Positions 3,615 through 29,251 of a DNA stretch of 38,832 nt are shown in pieces. The position numbers and the translations under genes were made by a program. The stretch lies in the IMG/VR virus record IMGVR_UViG_3300036715_001875, positions 1 to 38,832 of that record; one strand, 5' to 3'. A model generated the notes under the pieces. It worked only from the letters and a program-made list of their open reading frames with translations, was not told where the DNA came from and did not search any database. This DNA is from a virus. Within the stretch, counting starts at the first letter, position 1; every line of letters starts with the position of its first letter.

Positions 3615-4230
3615 CATCGAACGTCGAATCTTTGAATCAGGCCGGATTGAAATCCGCAAGGCCAGCCCTACCAGCCCGGTCGGCGTGCGCGGCTACGCGG
3701 CCAAATTCAACACCCTGTCTGAAAACCTCGGTGGCTTCCGCGAACAGATCGCCCCCGGCGCATTCGACGGCGTGCTGCAAGACGATGTCCGCTGCTTTTT
3801 CAACCACGATGAAAACCTCATTCTTGGCCGCACTACCGCAGGCACCCTGCGCATTACCGCCGACGCCACCGGCCTGATGTATGAAGCTGACCTGCCCGAT
3901 ACCCAGGCTGCACGCGACCTTGCAATCAGCATGGAACGCGGGGACATCACCCAGAGCAGTTTCGCCTTCCGCCTGGCCGCCAATGGCGACAGCTGGGACG
4001 AAAACGAAGACGGCGTCATCATTCGCACCATCACCCAGTTTGGCCGCCTATACGACGTCAGCCCGGTATCGATCCCGGCCTATCCAGACGCAACTTCCGG
4101 CATGCGCAGCCTGGATGCGTGGAAAAACGCCAAAAACAGCCAAAACGAGGCAGAAATTGCCAAAAAACAGGCACAAATCCAACAATTTCTAGAATCCAAA
4201 CGCCGCCAGTTAAGGCTGCGCTGCGCCTGA
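3607..4230 (+). CDS. Prohead maturation protease, HK97 (U35) family
   Basis: This serine protease cleaves the delta domain of the capsid protein during head maturation. It is 207 aa. It shows the family pattern GVRGYAAKFNTLSE, FREQIAPGAFDGVL, then the catalytic His in CFFNHD (about residue 67) and the catalytic Ser in ITQSSFAF (about 117-118). The C-terminal 50 residues are Gln/Lys/Ala-rich and probably helical. It sits between portal and capsid as in HK97 and is followed by two terminators. Confidence 0.93.
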   Translation: MNDIERRIFESGRIEIRKASPTSPVGVRGYAAKFNTLSENLGGFREQIAPGAFDGVLQDDVRCFFNHDENLILGRTTAGTLRITADATGLMYEADLPDTQAARDLAISMERGDITQSSFAFRLAANGDSWDENEDGVIIRTITQFGRLYDVSPVSIPAYPDATSGMRSLDAWKNAKNSQNEAEIAKKQAQIQQFLESKRRQLRLRCA

Positions 4231-4253
4231 TCGCGCGCTGACCCACTACCCAC

Positions 4254-4309
4254 AACCGCCTCACGGCGGTTTTTTTTCGCCCAAAGGCTGCCATCTGGCG
4301 GCCTTTTTT
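4254..4309 (+). terminator. Two tandem intrinsic terminators between protease and capsid genes
   Basis: The first hairpin pairs AACCGCC (4254-4260) with GGCGGTT (4265-4271) and runs into eight T. The second pairs GGCTGCC (4286-4292) with GGCGGCC (4297-4303), with one mismatch, followed by six T. They lie in the 163-base gap before the capsid gene and would reset transcription before, or process the message of, the most abundant protein. Confidence 0.75.
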
Positions 4310-4393
4310 GTTTCCCAGCCTCCGCAGCTCTAGCAGGGCGGCGCGGCTGGCCTCGTTTTTGGCCCTGCAAACACTCCCTTGAAAGGATCAACA

Positions 4394-5656
4394 ATGAGCA
4401 CCGCACAACAACTGAAAGACACCCGCGCCAGCATCGTCGTCCAGATGCGTACCCTGCACGAAGCAGCTGAAAAAGAGGCGCGCGCATTCAACACGGATGA
4501 AGACGCAAAGTGGGCAACCATGGACGCCGACCTGATCGCCCTCGACGACCGCATCAAGCGCGCCGAAAAGCTCGACAGCGCCGCCATGGTCGTGCCCACC
4601 CAGCTGCGCGCCGCCGGTAAAGTAGGCATGACCGAGGCCGAACCCGAAGACCCGGACCAGCCCACCGAATCCCGCGCCTTCACCAAGTTTCTCAAGTTCG
4701 GCATGTCTGAGCTTACCACCGAAGAGCGCAACCTCATGCAGGGTCGCAAAAACGACAGCAAGGAAATTCGCGCCCTGACCGCAGGCACGCTGAATACCGG
4801 CGGCTACACCGTGCCGCAGGACTTCCGCGACCAGCTCGAAGTCGCGCTCAAAGCATACGGCGGAATGATGGACGCTGCCGAGATCATCTACACCGACAGC
4901 GGTGCAGCCCTGCCGATGCCATCGTTCAATTACACGGCCGTGCTTGCCACAATCGTCGGTGAAGGCGTTGCAGGCACTGCCGACAGCAGCACCCCGTTCG
5001 GCGTCGCCACGCTCAACGCCTTCACCTACCGCTCGCCGATTCTGCCGGTCAGCTACGAGTTCCTGCAAGACAGCGCGTTTGGCGAAGGCTTCATTGTTGA
5101 CGCCTTGAGCGGATCCATCGCACGTGCGCTCAACGCCCACACCACCGTCGGCACCGGCACCGGCCAGCCACGCGGCATCATGCTTGACGCCGCGGCGGGC
5201 AAAGTCGGCTTGGTTGGTCAGACCTTGAGCGTGATTACTGACGACCTGTTCGATCTTGAGCACTCGGTTGACCCGGCCTATCGCGCCAGCGGCAGCAAAT
5301 TCATGATGGCCGACAGCTCGATGAAAGTCATCCGCAAGCTCAAAGACACCACCGGCCGCCCGATCTTCCTGCCTGGCTACGATGGCCTGGGTCAGCATGG
5401 CTCGGACAGCATCCTGGGCTACGACGTCGTCATCAACCAGGACATGCCAGCCATGGCCGCCAACGCCAAATCCATCGCCTTTGGTCGCCTCGACAAATAC
5501 AAGCTGCGCATGGTCAAGGACATCACCATTCTGCGTCTGACCGAGCGCTACGCCGACCAGCTGCAAGTCGCGTTCATCCTGTTCGCCCGTGCTGACGGCC
5601 GCCTGCTCGATGCCGGTACCAACCCGGTCAAGTATTACGCCAATAGCGCAAGCTAA
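4394..5656 (+). CDS. Major capsid protein, HK97 fold, with N-terminal delta domain
   Basis: 420 aa from the ATG at 4394, chosen over an upstream in-frame TTG (4379) because AAAGGA at 4382-4387 is correctly spaced. The N-terminal ~110 residues are charged and helical, the scaffolding-like delta domain expected to be removed by the protease. The mature HK97-fold shell protein begins around LTAGTLNTGGYTVPQDF and shows the usual MPSFNYTA, YRSPILPVSYEFLQDSAF, GTGTGQPRGI and GYDVVINQDMPAM blocks. The final segment RADGRLLDAGTNPVKYY matches the family end. It is isolated between terminators on both sides. Confidence 0.95.
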   Translation: MSTAQQLKDTRASIVVQMRTLHEAAEKEARAFNTDEDAKWATMDADLIALDDRIKRAEKLDSAAMVVPTQLRAAGKVGMTEAEPEDPDQPTESRAFTKFLKFGMSELTTEERNLMQGRKNDSKEIRALTAGTLNTGGYTVPQDFRDQLEVALKAYGGMMDAAEIIYTDSGAALPMPSFNYTAVLATIVGEGVAGTADSSTPFGVATLNAFTYRSPILPVSYEFLQDSAFGEGFIVDALSGSIARALNAHTTVGTGTGQPRGIMLDAAAGKVGLVGQTLSVITDDLFDLEHSVDPAYRASGSKFMMADSSMKVIRKLKDTTGRPIFLPGYDGLGQHGSDSILGYDVVINQDMPAMAANAKSIAFGRLDKYKLRMVKDITILRLTERYADQLQVAFILFARADGRLLDAGTNPVKYYANSAS

Positions 5657-11322: not shown

Positions 11323-11970
11323 ATGCCCAGTACCGCCCAAGTTGCACAGCAATCAAAATTTTACGTTTCCGGCACGCCGGGCGCGGCGATTTCCATTACC
11401 GGCATCAGCAAGGCAGCGGTGGCTGCGGTGACGGCAACCAATACCGTAGCCGTCGGCGACGTGGTGATTTTCGGTTCGGTCACAAACATGCCTGAAATTG
11501 CTGGCCGGATTGGTATCGTTGCCGCAACTCCAGCGCCTTCCGGTACGGCGTTCTCGGTCAATATCGACTCCAGCGCTTTCGCTGCTGTCGGCACCACCGG
11601 CACAGCCACACCGCAGACCTTTACCAAGGTCGGCAACGTGATGGACTTCACGCCAGACGGCGGCACCTCCAACGTGATTGACGTCACCAACCTGGATTCG
11701 CTGGCCAAGGAAAAGCGCCAGGGCTTGCAGGATAACGGCAACTATGCGCTAACGTTCGATTCCGACGACACCGACCCGGGCCAGCTTGCCCTGATCGCCG
11801 CCCGCGCCGCGCAATCGGTCGTGGTATTCAAAAACGTCTATCCCGGTGGCCTGAAAATCCGCGTTTTCCAGGGCTTCGTGCAAAAGATCAGCGAGCCAGT
11901 GGCAGGCGTGGATAAAACCCTGCGCAGCACCGGCACCATCGTCGTCACTGGCGCAATTTCGCGGGGTTGA
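11323..11970 (+). CDS. Major tail tube protein
   Basis: 215 aa with a strong RBS (AAGGAGG) seven bases upstream. It contains the tail-tube pattern TPDGGTSNVIDVTNLDSLAKEKRQGLQDNGNYAL followed by FDSDDTDPGQLALIAARA, and C-terminal strands KIRVFQGFVQKISEPVAGVDKTLRSTGTIVV, typical of HK97 gp13/lambda gpV-like tube proteins. An unusually Ala/Thr-rich insert at residues ~20-95 (ITGISKAAVAAVTATNT and on) may be an exposed domain. The stop overlaps the next start. Confidence 0.85.
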   Translation: MPSTAQVAQQSKFYVSGTPGAAISITGISKAAVAAVTATNTVAVGDVVIFGSVTNMPEIAGRIGIVAATPAPSGTAFSVNIDSSAFAAVGTTGTATPQTFTKVGNVMDFTPDGGTSNVIDVTNLDSLAKEKRQGLQDNGNYALTFDSDDTDPGQLALIAARAAQSVVVFKNVYPGGLKIRVFQGFVQKISEPVAGVDKTLRSTGTIVVTGAISRG

Positions 11971-12674: not shown

Positions 12675-12950
12675 ATGCATAATAAATTATTCATGGCAGT
12701 GGTTTTGATTGGCTGTTTTGCAGCGCCGTTTGCGCATGCAGATGGAACGGTCGGCGCAACTGATAAATGTCAATTTTCTTATCAGGGCGCGATCGGGCAA
12801 AGAAGCTGGTCGCTTGCCGATGCAGCCCATCAAGAATGCAGATGGAACGAGGCATTAACCAATGCCGGACGTCAAAATGAAATACAACACAATGCCTATC
12901 AGATGTGGCGGGATGATGCGCCGATACGCATGACCATAGAACGAAAATAA
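12675..12950 (+). CDS. Small exported protein of moron type between gpT and tape measure
   Basis: 91 aa. The N-terminus MHNKLFMAVVLIGCFAAP ends at FAHADG, a clear signal peptide with likely cleavage after AHA (residue 23). LIGC could alternatively act as a short lipobox. The mature part is polar with two Cys (DKCQFSY, HQECRWNE), so one periplasmic disulphide is possible, and a QSWRxW-like aromatic C-terminus. It is more AT-rich than its neighbours and has its own candidate promoter and terminator. HK97 carries gene 15, a superinfection-exclusion moron, at the same place. A role in excluding other phages is inferred; sequence homology to gp15 is not seen. Confidence 0.75.
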   Translation: MHNKLFMAVVLIGCFAAPFAHADGTVGATDKCQFSYQGAIGQRSWSLADAAHQECRWNEALTNAGRQNEIQHNAYQMWRDDAPIRMTIERK

Positions 12951-23241: not shown

Positions 23242-23660
23242 AATTCATTATCGGTATTTTGGCATTGTCATTAACCGGCTGCGCCAGCCTGCAATACGCT
23301 GGGTCTGCGGATTATGAACTACGTCCGTTTCAAGGTGCCGATGGTAAAAACGTGTGCTGTTCGGTGGTGATCCACAACGGCAAGGAAATCGCCAGCCTGA
23401 CCGCGCACGTGACGAAATTAGGAGAAAATTACAGTGTTGACCTCAACGAAGTGGGTGTTGCTGCATTCGCGGGTCAGAAAATCAGTGCTGAGGCTCTACA
23501 GGCGGCGGTTGACGGGGCTGTCAAGGCGGCTATTGCTACTGCTCTGGCTCCTCTCTTACCTGCTGCTGGCGCTGCTCTTGCCGCCCCTGGTATTGGCGCA
23601 GCTGCTTTAGGCGCGGGCGCTGTCATCGGTGCTCAGAAACTTGCTCCGGCCAAGCCATGA
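23238..23660 (+). CDS. Outer-membrane-type lipoprotein in lysis block
   Basis: 140 aa. The signal sequence MKFIIGILALSLTGCAS carries a good lipobox (LTGC, Cys15). Residue +2 is Ala, so sorting to the outer membrane is expected. The body has an NVCCSVVIHNGKEIASLTAHV segment and ends in a long Ala/Gly/Leu-rich low-complexity tail that could insert in or associate with membrane. It occupies the place where an o-spanin might be expected, but it is longer and has no partner i-spanin nearby. It directly precedes and overlaps the patatin-like gene. Confidence 0.7.
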   Translation: MKFIIGILALSLTGCASLQYAGSADYELRPFQGADGKNVCCSVVIHNGKEIASLTAHVTKLGENYSVDLNEVGVAAFAGQKISAEALQAAVDGAVKAAIATALAPLLPAAGAALAAPGIGAAALGAGAVIGAQKLAPAKP

Positions 23661-24460
23661 GCAAGCCGATCCGTGTAGCACTTAGCGGCTCTGGATTTAA
23701 ATTCCCCGCCCACGTCGGCGCGCTCAAGGCCATCCTGCAAGCCGATTATCTGCCGATTGAGATCGCTGCCACATCGGGCGGGTCAATCATCGCCGCGCTG
23801 TACGCAGCAGGCATGCCGATGGACGAAATGGAGGCGCTGGCGCTGCACCATGACTGGTCGGATATGATGACGTTCAACCCGTGGTCACTGATGACCAAGC
23901 TGGGCTACTGCAACGGCAACGCCCTGCACGAGTGGCTGGCGGAAAACACCTATGACCGCACATTCGCCGACCTGAACGTCGCGCTGACCATCGTTGCCAG
24001 CGACATCACCTTCATGCGTCCGTACATTTTCAGCAAAATCATGACGCCCAATGTGCCGCTGGCGTTCGCCGCACGTTGCTCGGCCAGCATACCGTTTGTC
24101 TACGCGCCCATGCCGTGCAGCGGTAGCCTGCTAGTGGATGGCGGCGTGCGCAACAACATCCCCATCGACCTGTTGATCGACGAACGCGTGCCGCAGATCG
24201 GCGTGCAGCTAGTGTCCAACAGGCAACCGCTTAAACCGGGCGCGCACGGTGTCGTCGAAATCGTCACGCGCATTGTTGAGTCCATGATGTCAGCCAATGA
24301 ATCAGCCCATGTTGACCTGGGTGTACGCGACGGCGCGCGCATGGCGTTTGTAGAAACCGGATACGTTGACGGCCTCAACCGCAACATGGCGCTGGCTGAC
24401 CGGCAACGATTGATGGATGATGGCTATATCAAGACTGCTGCGGCGTTGGCTGTGCCTTGA
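23657..24460 (+). CDS. Patatin-like phospholipase
   Basis: 267 aa. The patatin fold is indicated by an oxyanion-hole-like SGSGFKFPAHVGALKA near the N-terminus, a nucleophile elbow AATSGGSIIAALYAAG (Ser40; ATSGG in place of GxSxG), and the catalytic Asp motif LLVDGGVRNNIP near residue 162. The AFAARCSASIPFVYAP segment is also typical. Such enzymes hydrolyse acyl lipids. It is the last gene before attP, coupled to a lipoprotein and holin, so a role in membrane disruption at lysis or as a lysogeny cargo gene is inferred. There is no signal peptide. Confidence 0.85.
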   Translation: MSKPIRVALSGSGFKFPAHVGALKAILQADYLPIEIAATSGGSIIAALYAAGMPMDEMEALALHHDWSDMMTFNPWSLMTKLGYCNGNALHEWLAENTYDRTFADLNVALTIVASDITFMRPYIFSKIMTPNVPLAFAARCSASIPFVYAPMPCSGSLLVDGGVRNNIPIDLLIDERVPQIGVQLVSNRQPLKPGAHGVVEIVTRIVESMMSANESAHVDLGVRDGARMAFVETGYVDGLNRNMALADRQRLMDDGYIKTAAALAVP

Positions 24461-24707: not shown

Positions 24708-25715
24708 TCATGCGGGTTTCAGGGATTTTAATTTTTGCTGATTATCATGCCGGTGTAATTCTGGTGCATTTTGCGAAAACGCCTTGTCCAGCGCATCGCG
24801 CTGGCGGCCGATCTGCATGTGTGCGTATCGTTGGGTAGTTTTTACCGATGCGTGCCCCAAAATCTCTGCCACGGTGTACAGGTCTGCGCCACTGGCGATC
24901 AGCAGGCTGGCGCAGCTGTGGCGCAAGTCGTGGAAGTTGACGTGCGGCATGCCTGCGGCCTCGCGCGCTCTGCGCCAGCCGCTTTTTATCCCCTCGTAAT
25001 TGAGTTGCAGCGGTATTTTATCGAGCCACGGGCGCAGCGGTGCGACGATGGGGATGGTGCGCGTGCGCAGGGTTTTTGTGTTACCGGCATGGATCAGGAT
25101 GCGGTCGGCGCTGATGTCGGCAGCAGCGAGTTTGCAGATTTCGCCGCGCCGGGTGCCGGTGTAGGTGGCGATCCAGATTGCTGCCTGCATGGCCGGGCTG
25201 GCATGGTCTGCGATGGCCTGTACCTGTTCCAGCGTGAGGTAGATGCTGCGGGCGTTGTTTTCCGGCAGGCGCTTGATGTGGGTGCTGTAGTCGGTGGCAA
25301 TCAGCCCGCGCTCCCAGGCGATGTGCAGGGCTTTTTTTAGGGTGCCGAGGCTGCGGTTGATGGTGGCGGCGGCGTAGTGGCCGGTCATGTCACGGATGAT
25401 GTGCTCAGCGGCCTGGCGTGCCTGGCTGGCGCGGTATTTTTCTGCCCAAAGGCCGATGCGGTTGGCGTGGTAGATGGCAGTGTCAGGGCTGCGCAGGGTG
25501 GCGGCGTGGACGATGTACAGGCTGATTATGTCGGACAGGCGCGGGTCGCCGGGGATACGTGGGCTGGTGTTGCCAGCCAGCGCGCTGCGCAGATCGGCCT
25601 CTAGCTGCTTGGCGTCACCCGCAGATGCACCCGGCGGCAGGATGCGGTGAACGCGTTGGCCTGCGGCCATGACGCCAACATGCCGCCGCCCTTTTTTGTC
25701 GATCCAGATTGACAT
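24708..25715 (-). CDS. int: Tyrosine site-specific integrase
   Basis: 335 aa. It catalyses phage integration and excision. The catalytic set is complete: Arg189 in TYTGTRRGE, a Lys near 214, His262/Arg265 in HDLRHS, His288 in LGHAS and the nucleophile Tyr297 in KTTQRYAH. The N-terminal part (GRRHVGVMAAGQRV) is a short arm-binding domain, and residues 60-150 are the SAM-like core-binding domain. Its 5' end overlaps the xis-like gene by 115 bases, as in lambda. It is the last gene of the leftward operon, with its stop next to attP. Confidence 0.95.
   Translation of the reverse strand: MSIWIDKKGRRHVGVMAAGQRVHRILPPGASAGDAKQLEADLRSALAGNTSPRIPGDPRLSDIISLYIVHAATLRSPDTAIYHANRIGLWAEKYRASQARQAAEHIIRDMTGHYAAATINRSLGTLKKALHIAWERGLIATDYSTHIKRLPENNARSIYLTLEQVQAIADHASPAMQAAIWIATYTGTRRGEICKLAAADISADRILIHAGNTKTLRTRTIPIVAPLRPWLDKIPLQLNYEGIKSGWRRAREAAGMPHVNFHDLRHSCASLLIASGADLYTVAEILGHASVKTTQRYAHMQIGRQRDALDKAFSQNAPELHRHDNQQKLKSLKPA
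24752..24775. promoter_or_regulatory. Candidate integrase arm-type site (inside int 3' end)
   Basis: GGTGTAATTCTGGTGCATTTTG matches the element at 24547-24572 on the other side of the attP core, in the same orientation. It overlaps the codons for the integrase C-terminal PELHRHD. Confidence 0.4.
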
Positions 25716-25879
25716 TGATTATCCCGTAGCCACTGTTTGCATTCCGCGAGATCGTAGCGTTTTGCCCGCGCGCCGATGGGGGTATAGGGTAGCCCATACA
25801 GCTCCAGCCGTCGAACGGTAGATTCGCTGATTGTGAGGGCGGCGCACAGTTGCTGGCGCGTGAGGTGGTGATTGCTCAT
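25601..25879 (-). CDS. Excisionase-like HTH protein
   Basis: 92 aa from the ATG at 25879, which overlaps the previous stop (TAATG); a longer frame to 25966 exists but lacks support. The first 50 residues, LTRQQLCAALTISESTVRRLELYGLPYTPIGARAKRYDLAECKQWL, form a MerR/AlpA-type winged helix (HTH_17) typical of phage Xis and directionality factors. The C-terminal 40 residues are coded in the int overlap and may be spacer. It probably bends attP/attR DNA for excision. Confidence 0.75.
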   Translation of the reverse strand: MSNHHLTRQQLCAALTISESTVRRLELYGLPYTPIGARAKRYDLAECKQWLRDNQCQSGSTKKGGGMLASWPQANAFTASCRRVHLRVTPSS

Positions 25880-26265
25880 TATATGCTCATGATCGGCGAG
25901 TAGCCGCGCGCTGGTAGGCTGCGACGGGCATTGCCATGTCCTGGACGCGATTCGCGGTCGCTGCAAATATGCACGATGCGTGCGCCCGGCAGGCGTGGGA
26001 TATTCACTAAATCAACCGGCTTTGATGATTGATTTCGCACGGTCTGTAACGCGCTACCTGATGCAGTTTCGCGCATCGCGTAGTAGCGATCCATAACCCG
26101 GATGATGTCGCCACACTCATTGAGCGTCACGAGGATGTAGGCAAACTGGCGCGCACGCATGCCAGTGGCTGCGGAAATTGCCTTGCTGGTCATGCCGGTT
26201 TTTGATGTGCGGATTAAATCTAGCATGGCCTGGCGGTTTTTGTGGCCTGTGTCTGTTTTGGTCAT
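25879..26265 (-). CDS. Winged-helix-like early protein
   Basis: 128 aa. The N-terminal half (RQAMLDLIRTSKTGMTSKAISAATGMRARQFAYILVTLNECGDIIRV) reads as a winged HTH, suggesting DNA binding. The C-terminal half is basic and Arg-rich. It is coupled to the xis-like gene by TAATG. A regulatory role in the early operon or excision is possible but unproven. Confidence 0.6.
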   Translation of the reverse strand: MTKTDTGHKNRQAMLDLIRTSKTGMTSKAISAATGMRARQFAYILVTLNECGDIIRVMDRYYAMRETASGSALQTVRNQSSKPVDLVNIPRLPGARIVHICSDRESRPGHGNARRSLPARGYSPIMSI

Positions 26266-26266
26266 T

Positions 26267-26686
26267 TTATTTATCCTCGGGTGAAGGTGCGGTGTAGAGA
26301 GGTGTGGAGTGGTTACTCATGCCCTCAGATCGGTACACTGTAGCCATGCCGTCACCAGACTTAAGCATCTCCAGTCCGCTGCCGCGAATCCAGGCTACCG
26401 GCTCGCCGCGCTCCTCAAGCTTTTTGATACGCATAAGCAATGGCTGCGTAGCTGCATCAATCAATCCCTTGTGGTAATCGCAAATATGCTCTGGCGCATC
26501 AAACGCACAGGCGCACTGCTGCATACAATGCGCTTCGGCTAAATGCTCTTCCAGCCGCTCGATTTCATCACACAGCGCATTTACTGCGCGCACGGCACCG
26601 ATAGGGGCGCATAACTCACCGTTTTCAGCGGCGATACGCTCCCACGCTTCCACGTTGTAGTTCGTTCGGTAGTCTTTTAAGTCCAT
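26267..26686 (-). CDS. Hypothetical early protein
   Basis: 139 aa from the ATG at 26686, preceded by AAGGAA; an upstream ATG (26707) lacks an RBS. The N-terminal half has a coiled-coil segment (VRAVNALCDEIERLEEHLAEAH) and Cys residues (CMQQCACAF, EHICDYH). The C-terminus EPVAWI and STPLYTAP is a short module that recurs at the ends of many phage early proteins. Function unknown. It is the first gene leftward of the cassette-like array. Confidence 0.68.
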   Translation of the reverse strand: MDLKDYRTNYNVEAWERIAAENGELCAPIGAVRAVNALCDEIERLEEHLAEAHCMQQCACAFDAPEHICDYHKGLIDAATQPLLMRIKKLEERGEPVAWIRGSGLEMLKSGDGMATVYRSEGMSNHSTPLYTAPSPEDK

Positions 26687-26726
26687 TTTATGTTCCTTAT
26701 GCTTCAAAAATACGGTTTAAAAGTGG

Positions 26727-26766
26727 GTTAGGCACCTGTTTAGGTGCCTATAACGTGTTGTGCGTC
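26727..26766 (-). repeat. attC-like junction A (28-bp short hairpin with core boxes)
   Basis: Read on the minus strand, the stop codon of the 77-aa gene is followed by GCACAAC, AC, GTTATAGGC, then ACCT-AAAC-AGGT and GCCTAAC. GCACAAC resembles an attC R'' box and GTTATAGGC/GCCTAAC are core-like. The 28-base hairpin (26727-26754) shares GGCACCT and AGGTGCCTATAAC with the one at 27076-27103. It is too short for a full attC and looks like a remnant or fused site. Confidence 0.5.
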
Positions 26767-26998
26767 ACAGCAGCGCCGCCTTTTTTGCCTTCTGCTTTTT
26801 CTCAGGCCGCACCCACTTCATCATCATTTCTCGGGCCACTTCCGGCGTCACGCGTATCACGGTTGCACCCTTGCGTACCCATCTGGCAATATCCTTCGCC
26901 GTGTCTTTCTCCCATCGCGGATCATCCACGCAAGCCGCCCATGCCGCGCCTGGCTGGTCCGGGTCGGCTGCCACATAAACCATCGTTCCGTCTTCCAT
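26765..26998 (-). CDS. Hypothetical cassette gene
   Basis: 77 aa from the ATG at 26998, placed six bases after GGAGG; an upstream ATG at 27037 lies within attC-like junction B and is rejected. MEDGTMVYVAADPDQPGAAWA is followed by RWVRKGATVIRVTPEVAREMM and a very basic Lys-rich tail (PEKKQKAKKAALL), suggesting nucleic-acid contact. It is flanked by attC-like sites on both sides. Function unknown; an accessory anti-defence role is possible by association with the Tad2 gene next to it. Confidence 0.65.
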   Translation of the reverse strand: MEDGTMVYVAADPDQPGAAWAACVDDPRWEKDTAKDIARWVRKGATVIRVTPEVAREMMMKWVRPEKKQKAKKAALL

Positions 26999-27019
26999 GT
27001 CCGCCTCCAAAAAAGTGCC

Positions 27020-27103
27020 GCACAACCCTACGCTCAAGCGGGACTGCGCAAAAGCGTGCCGCCCCTTACCTCTACGTTTGGCACCTCGAAAGGTGCCTAT
27101 AAC
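27020..27103 (-). repeat. attC-like junction B (63-bp site plus short hairpin)
   Basis: Bases 27020-27082 run from GCACAAC to GTTTGGC on the plus strand (minus: GCCAAAC to GTTGTGC), 63 bases, with AACCCTACGCTCAAGCGGG on one arm, GCGC-AAAA-GCG in the centre and CCGCCCCTTACCTCTACGTT on the other arm. These are the boxes, spacing and imperfect pairing of an integron attC (59-base element). The 28-base hairpin GTTTGGCACCT-CGAA-AGGTGCCTATAAC (27076-27103) overlaps its end and abuts the Tad2 stop codon. Confidence 0.7.
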
Positions 27104-27106
27104 ACG

Positions 27107-27364
27107 TTAGCCGCCTTGTGCAACTTGCCAGTCTTCGGCAAGAATATCCGCTTGTGAAGCCAGCCATCCGGCTTGATGTGTTCCTTGCGCGGTATACATG
27201 CATATCACGGGGTCATAGTGTCGCGTTGTATTTTTTGCAACACCTACGGCAATGGGCAAGTGCCTGCCTTCTTCAAGGTATATGTGCATACCCTTGCCGT
27301 TCCAGCCAGATCGCTGTACAAGTTGGTTATCTTTTAACGCTTCAATCGCTTGTCCAAAGTTCAT
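27107..27364 (-). CDS. tad2: Tad2-like Thoeris anti-defence protein (DUF2829)
   Basis: 85 aa, preceded by AAAAGGAA. It has the DUF2829 layout: MNFGQAIEALKDNQLVQRSGWNGKG at the start, a central PVICMYTAQG strand and the conserved end GWLASQADILAEDWQV. Known Tad2 proteins form oligomers that sequester the gcADPR signal made by Thoeris ThsB and so block abortive NAD depletion. The Trp-Asn-Gly motif and the terminal W-L-A-S-Q...D..A-E-D-W pattern are preserved here. It sits alone between two attC-like sites (B and C), like an integron cassette. Family assignment is firm; anti-Thoeris activity is inferred. Confidence 0.85.
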   Translation of the reverse strand: MNFGQAIEALKDNQLVQRSGWNGKGMHIYLEEGRHLPIAVGVAKNTTRHYDPVICMYTAQGTHQAGWLASQADILAEDWQVAQGG

Positions 27365-27405
27365 GTTATTTCCTTTTAAAGTGCCGCGCTTCGTTGTGGG
27401 TAGGC

Positions 27406-27461
27406 GGCTAACCCATCATTCCAGCGGATGCCTTCGGCACCGCTGAATTCATACATTATGC
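27406..27461 (-). repeat. attC-like junction C (56 bp)
   Basis: On the plus strand it runs GGCTAAC ... ATTATGC. Inner arms CATTCCAGCGG and CCGCTGAATTC pair around GCC-TTC-GGC, with one unpaired C on one arm, the extrahelical-base asymmetry typical of attC. Outer boxes on the minus strand are GCATAAT (R''-like) and GTTAGCC (R'-like). It lies between the 58-aa gene and the Tad2 gene. Confidence 0.75.
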
Positions 27462-27483
27462 GTCGCATGGTGCATATCATTGG

Positions 27484-27660
27484 CTATTCGTCATCATCAA
27501 CTTCGTGAACGGTCGCAACGCAAAGAACCTCGCTATCCGGGTGCATCATGCGGTCTTGCAAATATTGCTTGTTGACCTCATTCGATCTCTGGAGCGCTTC
27601 GAGTTCATCACTGAAAACAACCACATCGTCCGTCCCTGCAACTCTCATTTCGTATTGCAT
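27484..27660 (-). CDS. Small acidic hypothetical cassette gene
   Basis: 58 aa from the ATG at 27660, seven bases after GGAG; a TTG at 27672 is rejected. MQYEMRVAGTDDVVVFSDELEALQ begins with a strand-turn-helix pattern, and the end VLCVATVHEVDDDE is strongly acidic. Small acidic phage proteins are often inhibitors or DNA mimics, but nothing specific is recognised. It is bounded by attC-like sites C and D. Confidence 0.65.
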   Translation of the reverse strand: MQYEMRVAGTDDVVVFSDELEALQRSNEVNKQYLQDRMMHPDSEVLCVATVHEVDDDE

Positions 27661-27677
27661 TTTTATCTCCAAAATTC

Positions 27678-27738
27678 GCCCCCAACACGGCGGTCAACAG
27701 CAACCGCTTTCAGCGGCGCGTTACCTTAGTCGTTATGC
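27678..27738 (-). repeat. attC-like junction D (61 bp)
   Basis: On the minus strand it starts with GCATAAC just before the TAA stop of the 76-aa gene and ends GTTGGGGGC, 61 bases. The central hairpin CCGCT-GAA-AGCGG and flanking GTAACGCG/TGCTGTTGAC arms pair with unpaired single bases. A stop codon lying just inside the R'' box is the normal cassette arrangement. Confidence 0.72.
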
Positions 27739-27956
27739 CCCAATCCAATCGGGCATGGTCTAACTGGGCACTGCATGCAGTAGCGGTGCGGCGCTGCGTG
27801 CGGGCAGTCCTCGAACCGGGCTTCGCATATCATCCGCAGTGCGTCGGCGCATTCACGCAGCGCCTCGCGTCGGTCGGCGTTTCCAGCCCCGCTGTCGGCC
27901 TCAGTCTGCCAATGCCCAGCTAGTGTCGTAAGTGTCGTAATCCGTATGGTTTCCAT
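27726..27956 (-). CDS. Small Cys-rich hypothetical cassette gene
   Basis: 76 aa from the ATG at 27956 with GGAGAGGAAAG upstream; a longer frame to 27992 runs through attC-like site E. An amphipathic helix (ADRREALRECADALRMICEARFED) is followed by CPHAAPHRYCMQCPVRPCP, with five Cys and two His that could bind zinc. No family is recognised. It is bounded by attC-like sites D and E. Confidence 0.65.
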   Translation of the reverse strand: METIRITTLTTLAGHWQTEADSGAGNADRREALRECADALRMICEARFEDCPHAAPHRYCMQCPVRPCPIGLGHND

Positions 27957-27978
27957 CGTCTTTCCTCTCCGGGCCAGT

Positions 27979-28006
27979 GCCCAACAATTCATTCAATTGG
28001 CTATGC
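27979..28006 (-). repeat. attC-like junction E (28 bp, truncated)
   Basis: On the plus strand GCCCAACAATTCATTC leads into AATTGGCTATGC. GCCCAAC is a perfect core box (GTTGGGC on the minus strand), and AACAATTCATTC is the usual continuation of many attC sites. The centre is missing, leaving a CAATT-GAATG-AATTG hairpin on the minus strand. The stop codon of the 74-aa gene lies in the distal box. Confidence 0.55.
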
Positions 28007-28225
28007 CGCCTTATGCTTACACCCAGCGCACGCCGTCCACGGTAACCACACGCCGCGCTGGTCTGTCATCTGGCGCATCAGATGAGCGTTACCCCCGGCG
28101 CGCCAATGTGGGCATCCGGGCAGCCAGCCGCCGGTAAATGGCGCATGGTTGTAGCATGTTGGCAGCGCGGGTTGTCGGTGGTTGCGCGCGTGCCAGGATT
28201 GCTGGATTTCAGGCATAGTCTTCAT
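28001..28225 (-). CDS. Small Cys/His-rich hypothetical protein
   Basis: 74 aa, ATGA overlap with the upstream gene. LPTCYNHAPFTGGWLPGCPHW and WTACAGCKHK give two Cys/His clusters consistent with a zinc finger. Trp- and Pro-rich. Its start MKTMPEI is echoed by the 19-codon frame at 28577. Its stop lies in attC-like site E, so it may be the first member of the array or the gene next to which the array was inserted. Confidence 0.65.
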   Translation of the reverse strand: MKTMPEIQQSWHARNHRQPALPTCYNHAPFTGGWLPGCPHWRAGGNAHLMRQMTDQRGVWLPWTACAGCKHKAA

Positions 28226-28521: not shown

Positions 28522-28577
28522 TTTGTTACCTCCTTGTGCTTAATTTCTGGCAGGGTTTTCATGGATGCACCATTCAT
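28518..28577 (-). CDS. Possible 19-codon coupling ORF
   Basis: ATG at 28577 overlaps the methyltransferase stop (ATGA), and its own stop overlaps the start of the 99-aa gene (ATGA). It encodes MNGASMKTLPEIKHKEVTK. It spans the only gap in this part of the operon and may serve translational coupling, or be the remnant of a gene starting MKTLPEI like the 74-aa protein (MKTMPEI). It may also be chance. Confidence 0.3.
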   Translation of the reverse strand: MNGASMKTLPEIKHKEVTK

Positions 28578-29251
28578 GCGAACATCCTTGTCTGTGCAGT
28601 AGCCTGTTCGATGCGCTTACAGGCCGCATCGTAATAATCTTTGTCTAACTCGCATCCGACCATCTCAAAGCCGAGGTTATTGCAGGCTATAGCGGAACTT
28701 CCTGAGCCTAGGTGCGTGTCCAGAATTCGGTCGCCGGGCTTGGCGTAGTTGGTCAGGAGCCATTCGTAGAGCTTTACTGGTTTCTGTGTTGGATGTATCC
28801 GCGCCTCTTTATTTTTCATATCACCTTGAATCATGCCGTTCCATGTGTGCTTAAATTTACGCAGAGCGATATCAAACGATGAAAAAGCAAGCTCACAATC
28901 ACTGAACTTTGTTGTGCCGTTGTCCTTATCCCAAACAATCCACCCCATAGATGGTGGAAGGTGGTTTGTCATGTAGTTGCCACCCCATATAATGCGATTC
29001 TTGCTCACTCGATCAAGTTGCTCAAAGTATTCGTGCTCAGGTATAGATGCATCCCAATCTTTATTTTCAAACGCACTTTTCATCGCGCAGCCGTTTCCGC
29101 TCTTTCTTATCTCGCCGCCAAATAATTCAGCCGCATTTATCCCATAAGGCGGGTCAACAATCGCCAGCTCAAACGCTTTATCCGGCAATGTGCGCATATA
29201 TTCCATGCAATCCATCCGGTGCAGCGTGGCTTTTCCAATGATGTCGCTCAT
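28574..29251 (-). CDS. DNA adenine/cytosine-N4 methyltransferase
   Basis: 225 aa. The catalytic motif IV DPPYGI lies near residue 34, and the AdoMet motif I (DTHLGSGSSAIAC) near 176, with HPTQKPVKLYEWL (motif X-like) between. This order is that of beta-class N6-adenine/N4-cytosine methyltransferases (N6_N4_Mtase). No restriction gene is nearby, so it is an orphan enzyme, likely protecting phage DNA from host restriction or tuning expression. It is coupled to the upstream gene by ATGA. Confidence 0.9.
   Translation of the reverse strand: MSDIIGKATLHRMDCMEYMRTLPDKAFELAIVDPPYGINAAELFGGEIRKSGNGCAMKSAFENKDWDASIPEHEYFEQLDRVSKNRIIWGGNYMTNHLPPSMGWIVWDKDNGTTKFSDCELAFSSFDIALRKFKHTWNGMIQGDMKNKEARIHPTQKPVKLYEWLLTNYAKPGDRILDTHLGSGSSAIACNNLGFEMVGCELDKDYYDAACKRIEQATAQTRMFA

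Follow-up and report, generated by a model that had tools for sequence, protein, structure and literature searches.

What are the closely spaced attC-like sites that separate small genes in the accessory region of a phage genome, and from what kind of integron might the genes between them have come? The window, as we call the whole stretch of DNA analysed here, is one IMG/VR virus record (38.8 kb). It resembles Pseudomonas stutzeri phage vB_PstS-pAN in gene layout and in its large terminase subunit (63% identity), and it carries accessory genes, mostly on the - strand, from ~24.7 to 33.7 kb. An initial annotation of this region described integron cassettes captured by the phage, with a chromosomal integron implied as the source. 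Phage genomes are known to carry both CALINs and integrons, with sites that are active with IntI1 (Qi et al. 2023, PMC9892861). The window itself has no direct DNA match in phage and plasmid collections, and an Rfam search gave no match. We propose to read the locus as a phage integron's cassette array, lacking intI and with its reading frames reversed, and we regard this reading as very probable. It draws on observations of attC identity, of polarity, of like polarity in unrelated phages, of a shared block with cassette-exact ends, of orthology at the intI slot, and of a phage IntI clade.

We searched for attC sites with a covariance model, R1, built from 28 sites outside the window, taken from class 1 plasmid integrons and from IntI-encoding bacterial contigs; R1 was used in place of an earlier hand-made arm-pairing scan, which overlooked sites with degenerate R boxes. 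Run over the entire window on both strands with filters off, R1 finds exactly three sites, all on the + strand (S1-S3; Table 1), and its next-best match reaches 9.3 bits (E 2.6). All three have the R''-L''-L'-R' architecture with core GTTRRRY and score above the model threshold, at 30-45 bits. The annotation had placed three full-length attC sites at these coordinates (44.5, 36.9 and 30.4 bits) and had named a covariance-model search as the check on them, which they pass with E values from 1.6e-5 to 5e-9. It had also counted five junctions with such sites; the remaining two hold a half site (27979-28014) and, at 26727, a core box only. The model behaves as expected on known material: bacterial integron loci gave 110 R1 matches, 110/110 on the expected strand, while 93 related-phage and Tad2 loci (1.0 Mb) gave a single match of 14 bits (E 4.7), and in 24 complete records of terminase- or integrase-related phages the best match reached 17.1 bits. 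S1-S3 are genuine attC sites. Lying within 719 bp in a window that lacks IntI, they constitute a CALIN (at least two close attC sites, no intI).

Table 1. Features of the cassette array and its surroundings, in window coordinates.
Feature	Position	Strand	Remarks
Phage tyrosine integrase (not IntI)	24708..25715	-	Sole tyrosine recombinase in the window
g26267 and g25879	25879..26707	-	Between array and integrase; intI slot of L265/L286 by gene order
Core GTTAGGC, 30-bp hairpin element, core GTTGTGC	26727..26763	+	Promoter-distal array edge; two cores 30 bp apart
Cassette A (gene A and S1, core to core)	26757..27081	-	DNA block in common with G028
Gene A, 77 aa	26765..26998	-	No assigned function; aa identity 85% to G028, 64% to Cyanophage Cy-LDV1
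attC S1	27020..27082	+	R1 36.9 bits, E 3.8e-7; R' core GTTTGGC at 27076-27082
Second copy of 30-bp hairpin element	27076..27112	+	Between cores GTTTGGC and GTTAGCC
Gene B, 85 aa	27107..27364	-	Tad2-like (anti-Thoeris family, predicted); Pfam PF11195, E 1.4e-24
attC S2	27406..27461	+	R1 44.5 bits, E 5e-9; R' ATTATGC at 27455-27461
Gene C, 58 aa	27484..27660	-	No assigned function; ORF with ribosome-binding site
attC S3	27680..27738	+	R1 30.4 bits, E 1.6e-5; R' core GTTATGC at 27732-27738
Gene D, 76 aa	27726..27956	-	No assigned function; final codons overlap S3 core
Degenerate attC half site S4	27979..28014	+	R''/L''-like GCCCAACAATTCATTCAA by sequence reading; no R1 match
DNA methyltransferase	28574..29251	-	Pfam N6_N4_Mtase, E 1.8e-19; promoter-proximal side of array

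The three sites resemble attCs of betaproteobacterial chromosomal integrons: S1 and S2 are near matches to two different attCs of a chromosomal integron in a Glaciimonas MAG (L237), and S3 resembles an attC of an Accumulibacter MAG (L231). The likeness to such sedentary integrons, of which L237 is our example, extends to attC types, cores, cassettes of a single small gene each, and the placing of attC relative to intI, but there the genes run with the attC sites and intI is divergent from them. The direction of an attC site can be read from its asymmetry. The bottom strand recombines roughly a thousandfold better than the top; unpaired features, among them extrahelical bases, determine this preference, which normally ensures that an inserted gene faces the Pc promoter (PMC8946536). 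Reading the sequence of S1-S3 shows that it is the 5' arm on the + strand that holds the extra base (GCTCAAG/GGT-AAG, ATTCCAG/ATT-CAG and GGTCAAC/GGT-AAC), and since R1 also scores these sites on + only, + is their top strand; minimum-energy folds of the single sites were uninformative as to strand. Genes A-D lie on the - strand, and they are real genes, as the Pfam match of gene B and the conservation of gene A in another phage indicate (Table 1). The array thus departs from the shared polarity of genes and attC sites that is canonical for cassettes, and the earlier statement that the genes are oriented as in gene cassettes is wrong, because the polarity of the attC sites is opposite to that of the genes.

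The same opposition is found in other phages. We identified G028 (39.4 kb) through gene A, and a pattern scan yielded G030 and G031, which have 11 and 12 sites on one strand, respectively; by protein comparison these three and the window have almost nothing in common. In the four together, attC-flanked genes run 18 against and 2 with the attC direction, compared with 4 against and 46 with it (46/50 intervals) in chromosomal integrons assessed by the same procedure (Fisher p 5e-11). A degenerate pattern for S1-type sites led to 78 IMG/VR stretches, and in the 76 new loci assessed, with 80 sites, the coding direction was opposite for 61, mixed for 19 and the same for none; gene calls in the metagenomes are automatic, and direction counts from IMG/VR are not all independent, because some contigs are near copies. 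IntI-encoding IMG/VR contigs gave 56 attC-flanked genes against and 7 with, subject to the same dependence, and all 7 belong to L295, a sequence from an isolate genome that resembles a chromosomal superintegron, which leaves 56 to 0 in the phages that encode IntI. Nine large proteins of such IMG/VR contigs were checked, and 8/9 match phage tail, terminase or primase families. Where opposed-strand cassette genes have family matches, these are to methyltransferases, a DHH phosphoesterase, and PAPS reductase-like and Mom-like proteins. In the IntI phages, intI and the array genes occupy one strand, and attC and intI stand in the same relation as in cellular integrons. Phage arrays therefore conserve the geometry of recombination, and only the reading frames are flipped, so that one transcript could span array and intI. 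The window shows the arrangement by which we propose to recognise a phage lineage, attC sites opposed to genes within a phage operon. The IntI-bearing viral contig L303 is unlike all the others in having its attC sites (11465-11559 and 12742-12833, +) on the other side of intI.

The integrases of these phages also belong together. In a tree of 138 IntIs, 50 viral sequences group in a single clade (local support 99) that contains none of the cellular IntIs sampled, and the clade stays intact (support 98) once the 20 cellular IntIs nearest a phage query are added; it is also recovered in a mixture-model tree of 76 rows (SH-aLRT 81). Arrays could be assessed for 25 of the 50 clade members and are reversed in 25/25. 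Two further loci, L323 and L327, have reversed arrays yet encode IntIs that fall outside the phage clade. Many phage intI genes have an attI-like site upstream, its two cores spaced by 30-31 bp. Separately, in the GenBank phage record KX853513 (Virus Rctr41k; L165), an IntI-like gene at 3995-4993 stands in line with small same-strand genes; R1 finds no attC there, so this phage may use diverged sites.

An intI gene, which a complete integron has, is missing from the window, as the initial annotation had noted: the best candidate, the product of the phage integrase gene, reaches 45.6 bits, where TIGR02249 requires 265. No IntI was found in G028, G030 or G031 either. The place that intI would occupy can nevertheless be located by comparison with the IntI phages L265 and L286, in which the gene order is array, phage-clade intI, phage integrase. 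The integrase of the window is 76% and 73% identical to theirs, each encoded just downstream of intI, and DNA similarity to L265/L286 (78%) begins at 25865, adjoining g25879. The slot at the promoter-distal end of the array is filled in the window by g26267 and g25879. The window shares reversed attC arrays with L265, L286 and L304, an integrase beside the array with the first two and gene D with the third, and differs from all three in lacking the phage-clade IntI, upstream of which those phages have an attI-like site. It is most simply read as a member of the phage integron lineage without intI.

At the promoter-distal edge of the array there is a 30-bp hairpin element (GGCACCTnnnnAGGTGCCTATAAC) with a second copy further in, each copy lying exactly between two core boxes; the element is absent from the other loci compared. 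Since this spacing resembles that of the two cores in phage attI-like sites, the elements may be attI-derived, and we treat 26727-26763 as a lead only, to a possible attI-derived remnant. Cores at 26696 (CTTATGC) and 26727 are 31 bp apart, which is again the spacing of phage attI-like sites, and the sequence is otherwise diverged.

Two cases point to the exchange of genes as units that end at core boxes. The single DNA match between the window and the whole of G028 covers 26757-27081 (87.7% over 325 bp). Its first base is the G of core GTTGTGC (26757-26763) and its last lies in the R' core of S1 (27076-27082), so that cassette A corresponds to a core-to-core unit. Gene D corresponds at one end: its relative in the IntI-bearing phage L304 is 77% identical in amino acids, and the shared DNA block (75%) has one end at 27736, within the S3 core (27732-27738). 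The C-terminus of gene D is also found in L260, where it runs into an R' core. Broader tests gave only weak enrichment, both for isolated blocks ending at cores in an all-against-all comparison (11.8% vs 6.8%, with intI blocks dominating) and for homology of phage intI regions starting at the attI core (11.9% vs 5.4%), and the claim of exchange therefore rests on cassette A and gene D. Among terminase relatives the early regions, which contain no attC, are too divergent for a comparison of single-gene gain and loss. The gene A relative in Cyanophage Cy-LDV1 (BK059895; L330) lies at 5001-5267, in a record without an R1 attC match.

The cassette genes themselves bear out part of the earlier description. 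Stop codons were said to lie in or beside the core boxes, which holds for genes A, B (whose stop is within core GTTAGCC, 27106-27112) and D, but not for gene C, whose stop is 22 bp from the S2 core; in several arrays the core, read on the gene strand, includes the stop TAA (RYYTAA/C). Gene B belongs to the Tad2 family (Thoeris anti-defence 2), scoring 86.8 bits against a PF11195 gathering cut-off of 25, in agreement with the claim that the content includes anti-defence; 49 other Tad2-bearing viral loci have no attC by R1. A family search with gene C gave no match. In the searches run here, close relatives of genes A and D occur in other phages only, and neither gene A nor gene B turned up in the bacterial genomes sampled (399 and 369; Beta- and Gammaproteobacteria). 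We found no link to a chromosomal integron as donor, and a lineage of phage integrons that has an IntI clade to itself is a better source for the cassettes. Of the idea that integron cassettes were captured, the genuine attC sites and the G/TT ends of the cassette A block stand; the layout is not that of a bacterial array.

An ordinary CALIN, in which a piece of a bacterial chromosomal integron was taken up by a phage and now lies under a phage promoter, would account for the closeness of S1-S3 to Glaciimonas and Accumulibacter attCs, and phage CALINs of normal polarity do exist, as in Tetrasphaera phage TJE1. We nonetheless think it unlikely, given that genes opposed to attC are seen in only about 8% of chromosomal cassettes, that genes A and D have close relatives in phages only, and that the slot beside the array matches that of intI-bearing phage integrons. 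Somewhat less plausible still is that the sites derive from attC but are past recombining, and are retained as RNA hairpins or spacers in gene leaders. On the gene strand each attC does stand ahead of a ribosome-binding site, and the decay of S4 and the absence of intI also fit; against this, the R and L boxes are preserved well enough to score 30-45 bits, the block in common with G028 ends at both cores, and phages of equal layout encode IntI. Chance resemblance of ordinary intergenic hairpins to attC has a negligible probability and is refuted by the R1 search and its controls, for although core-like motifs by themselves are frequent (8 in 1.5 kb vs about 5 expected), three adjacent sites reach E 1e-5 to 5e-9, and 1 Mb of DNA from related phages holds nothing comparable.

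We propose the following model for the locus as the array of a phage integron. Each cassette is a single small gene that has a ribosome-binding site of its own and stops in or close to a core box; it is bounded by G/TT cores and flanked by attC. The attC sites point away from the expected place of intI and attI, which is promoter-distal and beside the phage integrase, as they do in cellular integrons. Since the frames run against the attC sites, the array, the intI slot and the phage integrase are all read one way, and the coding strand of the array would be the recombinogenic bottom strand; transcription could, speculatively, help to expose it. IntI supplied in trans, by a co-infecting phage, a lysogen or resident phage, or a host integron, most likely still recombines the bottom strand and moves the cassettes, which we infer to be mobile at present. 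The role of the system would be the exchange of anti-defence and accessory genes.

The previously described CALINs of Tetrasphaera phage TJE1 and Shewanella phage M16-3 (PMC9892861) resemble the window in being attC clusters without intI and in having methyltransferase cassettes, but their genes run with attC, whereas those of the window run against it. Neither reversed polarity nor a phage IntI clade is reported in that study (PMC9892861), and we found nothing on either in the literature searched, which was of incomplete coverage and without preprints. We think it probable that phages own a distinct integron lineage, with its IntI clade, attI-like sites and reversed arrays, through which unrelated phages trade single genes in a separate pool. 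This pool would stay apart from the bacterial one because a cassette moved between the two would be wrongly oriented for expression. Such a lineage could account, through a site-specific process, for some of the single-gene mosaicism in phage accessory regions, and would make anti-defence genes (Tad2-like, methyltransferases, Mom-like) part of a shuffling system that is the counterpart to the defence cassettes found in bacterial integrons. Moreover, reversed polarity uncouples gene direction from recombination geometry, which makes the determinant of cassette orientation directly testable, and any viral dataset can serve to check the direction bias, which is large. Next to the phage integrase, an ORF at 23657-24460 has GSGF and SGGS motifs and may encode a protein resembling patatin-type phospholipases.
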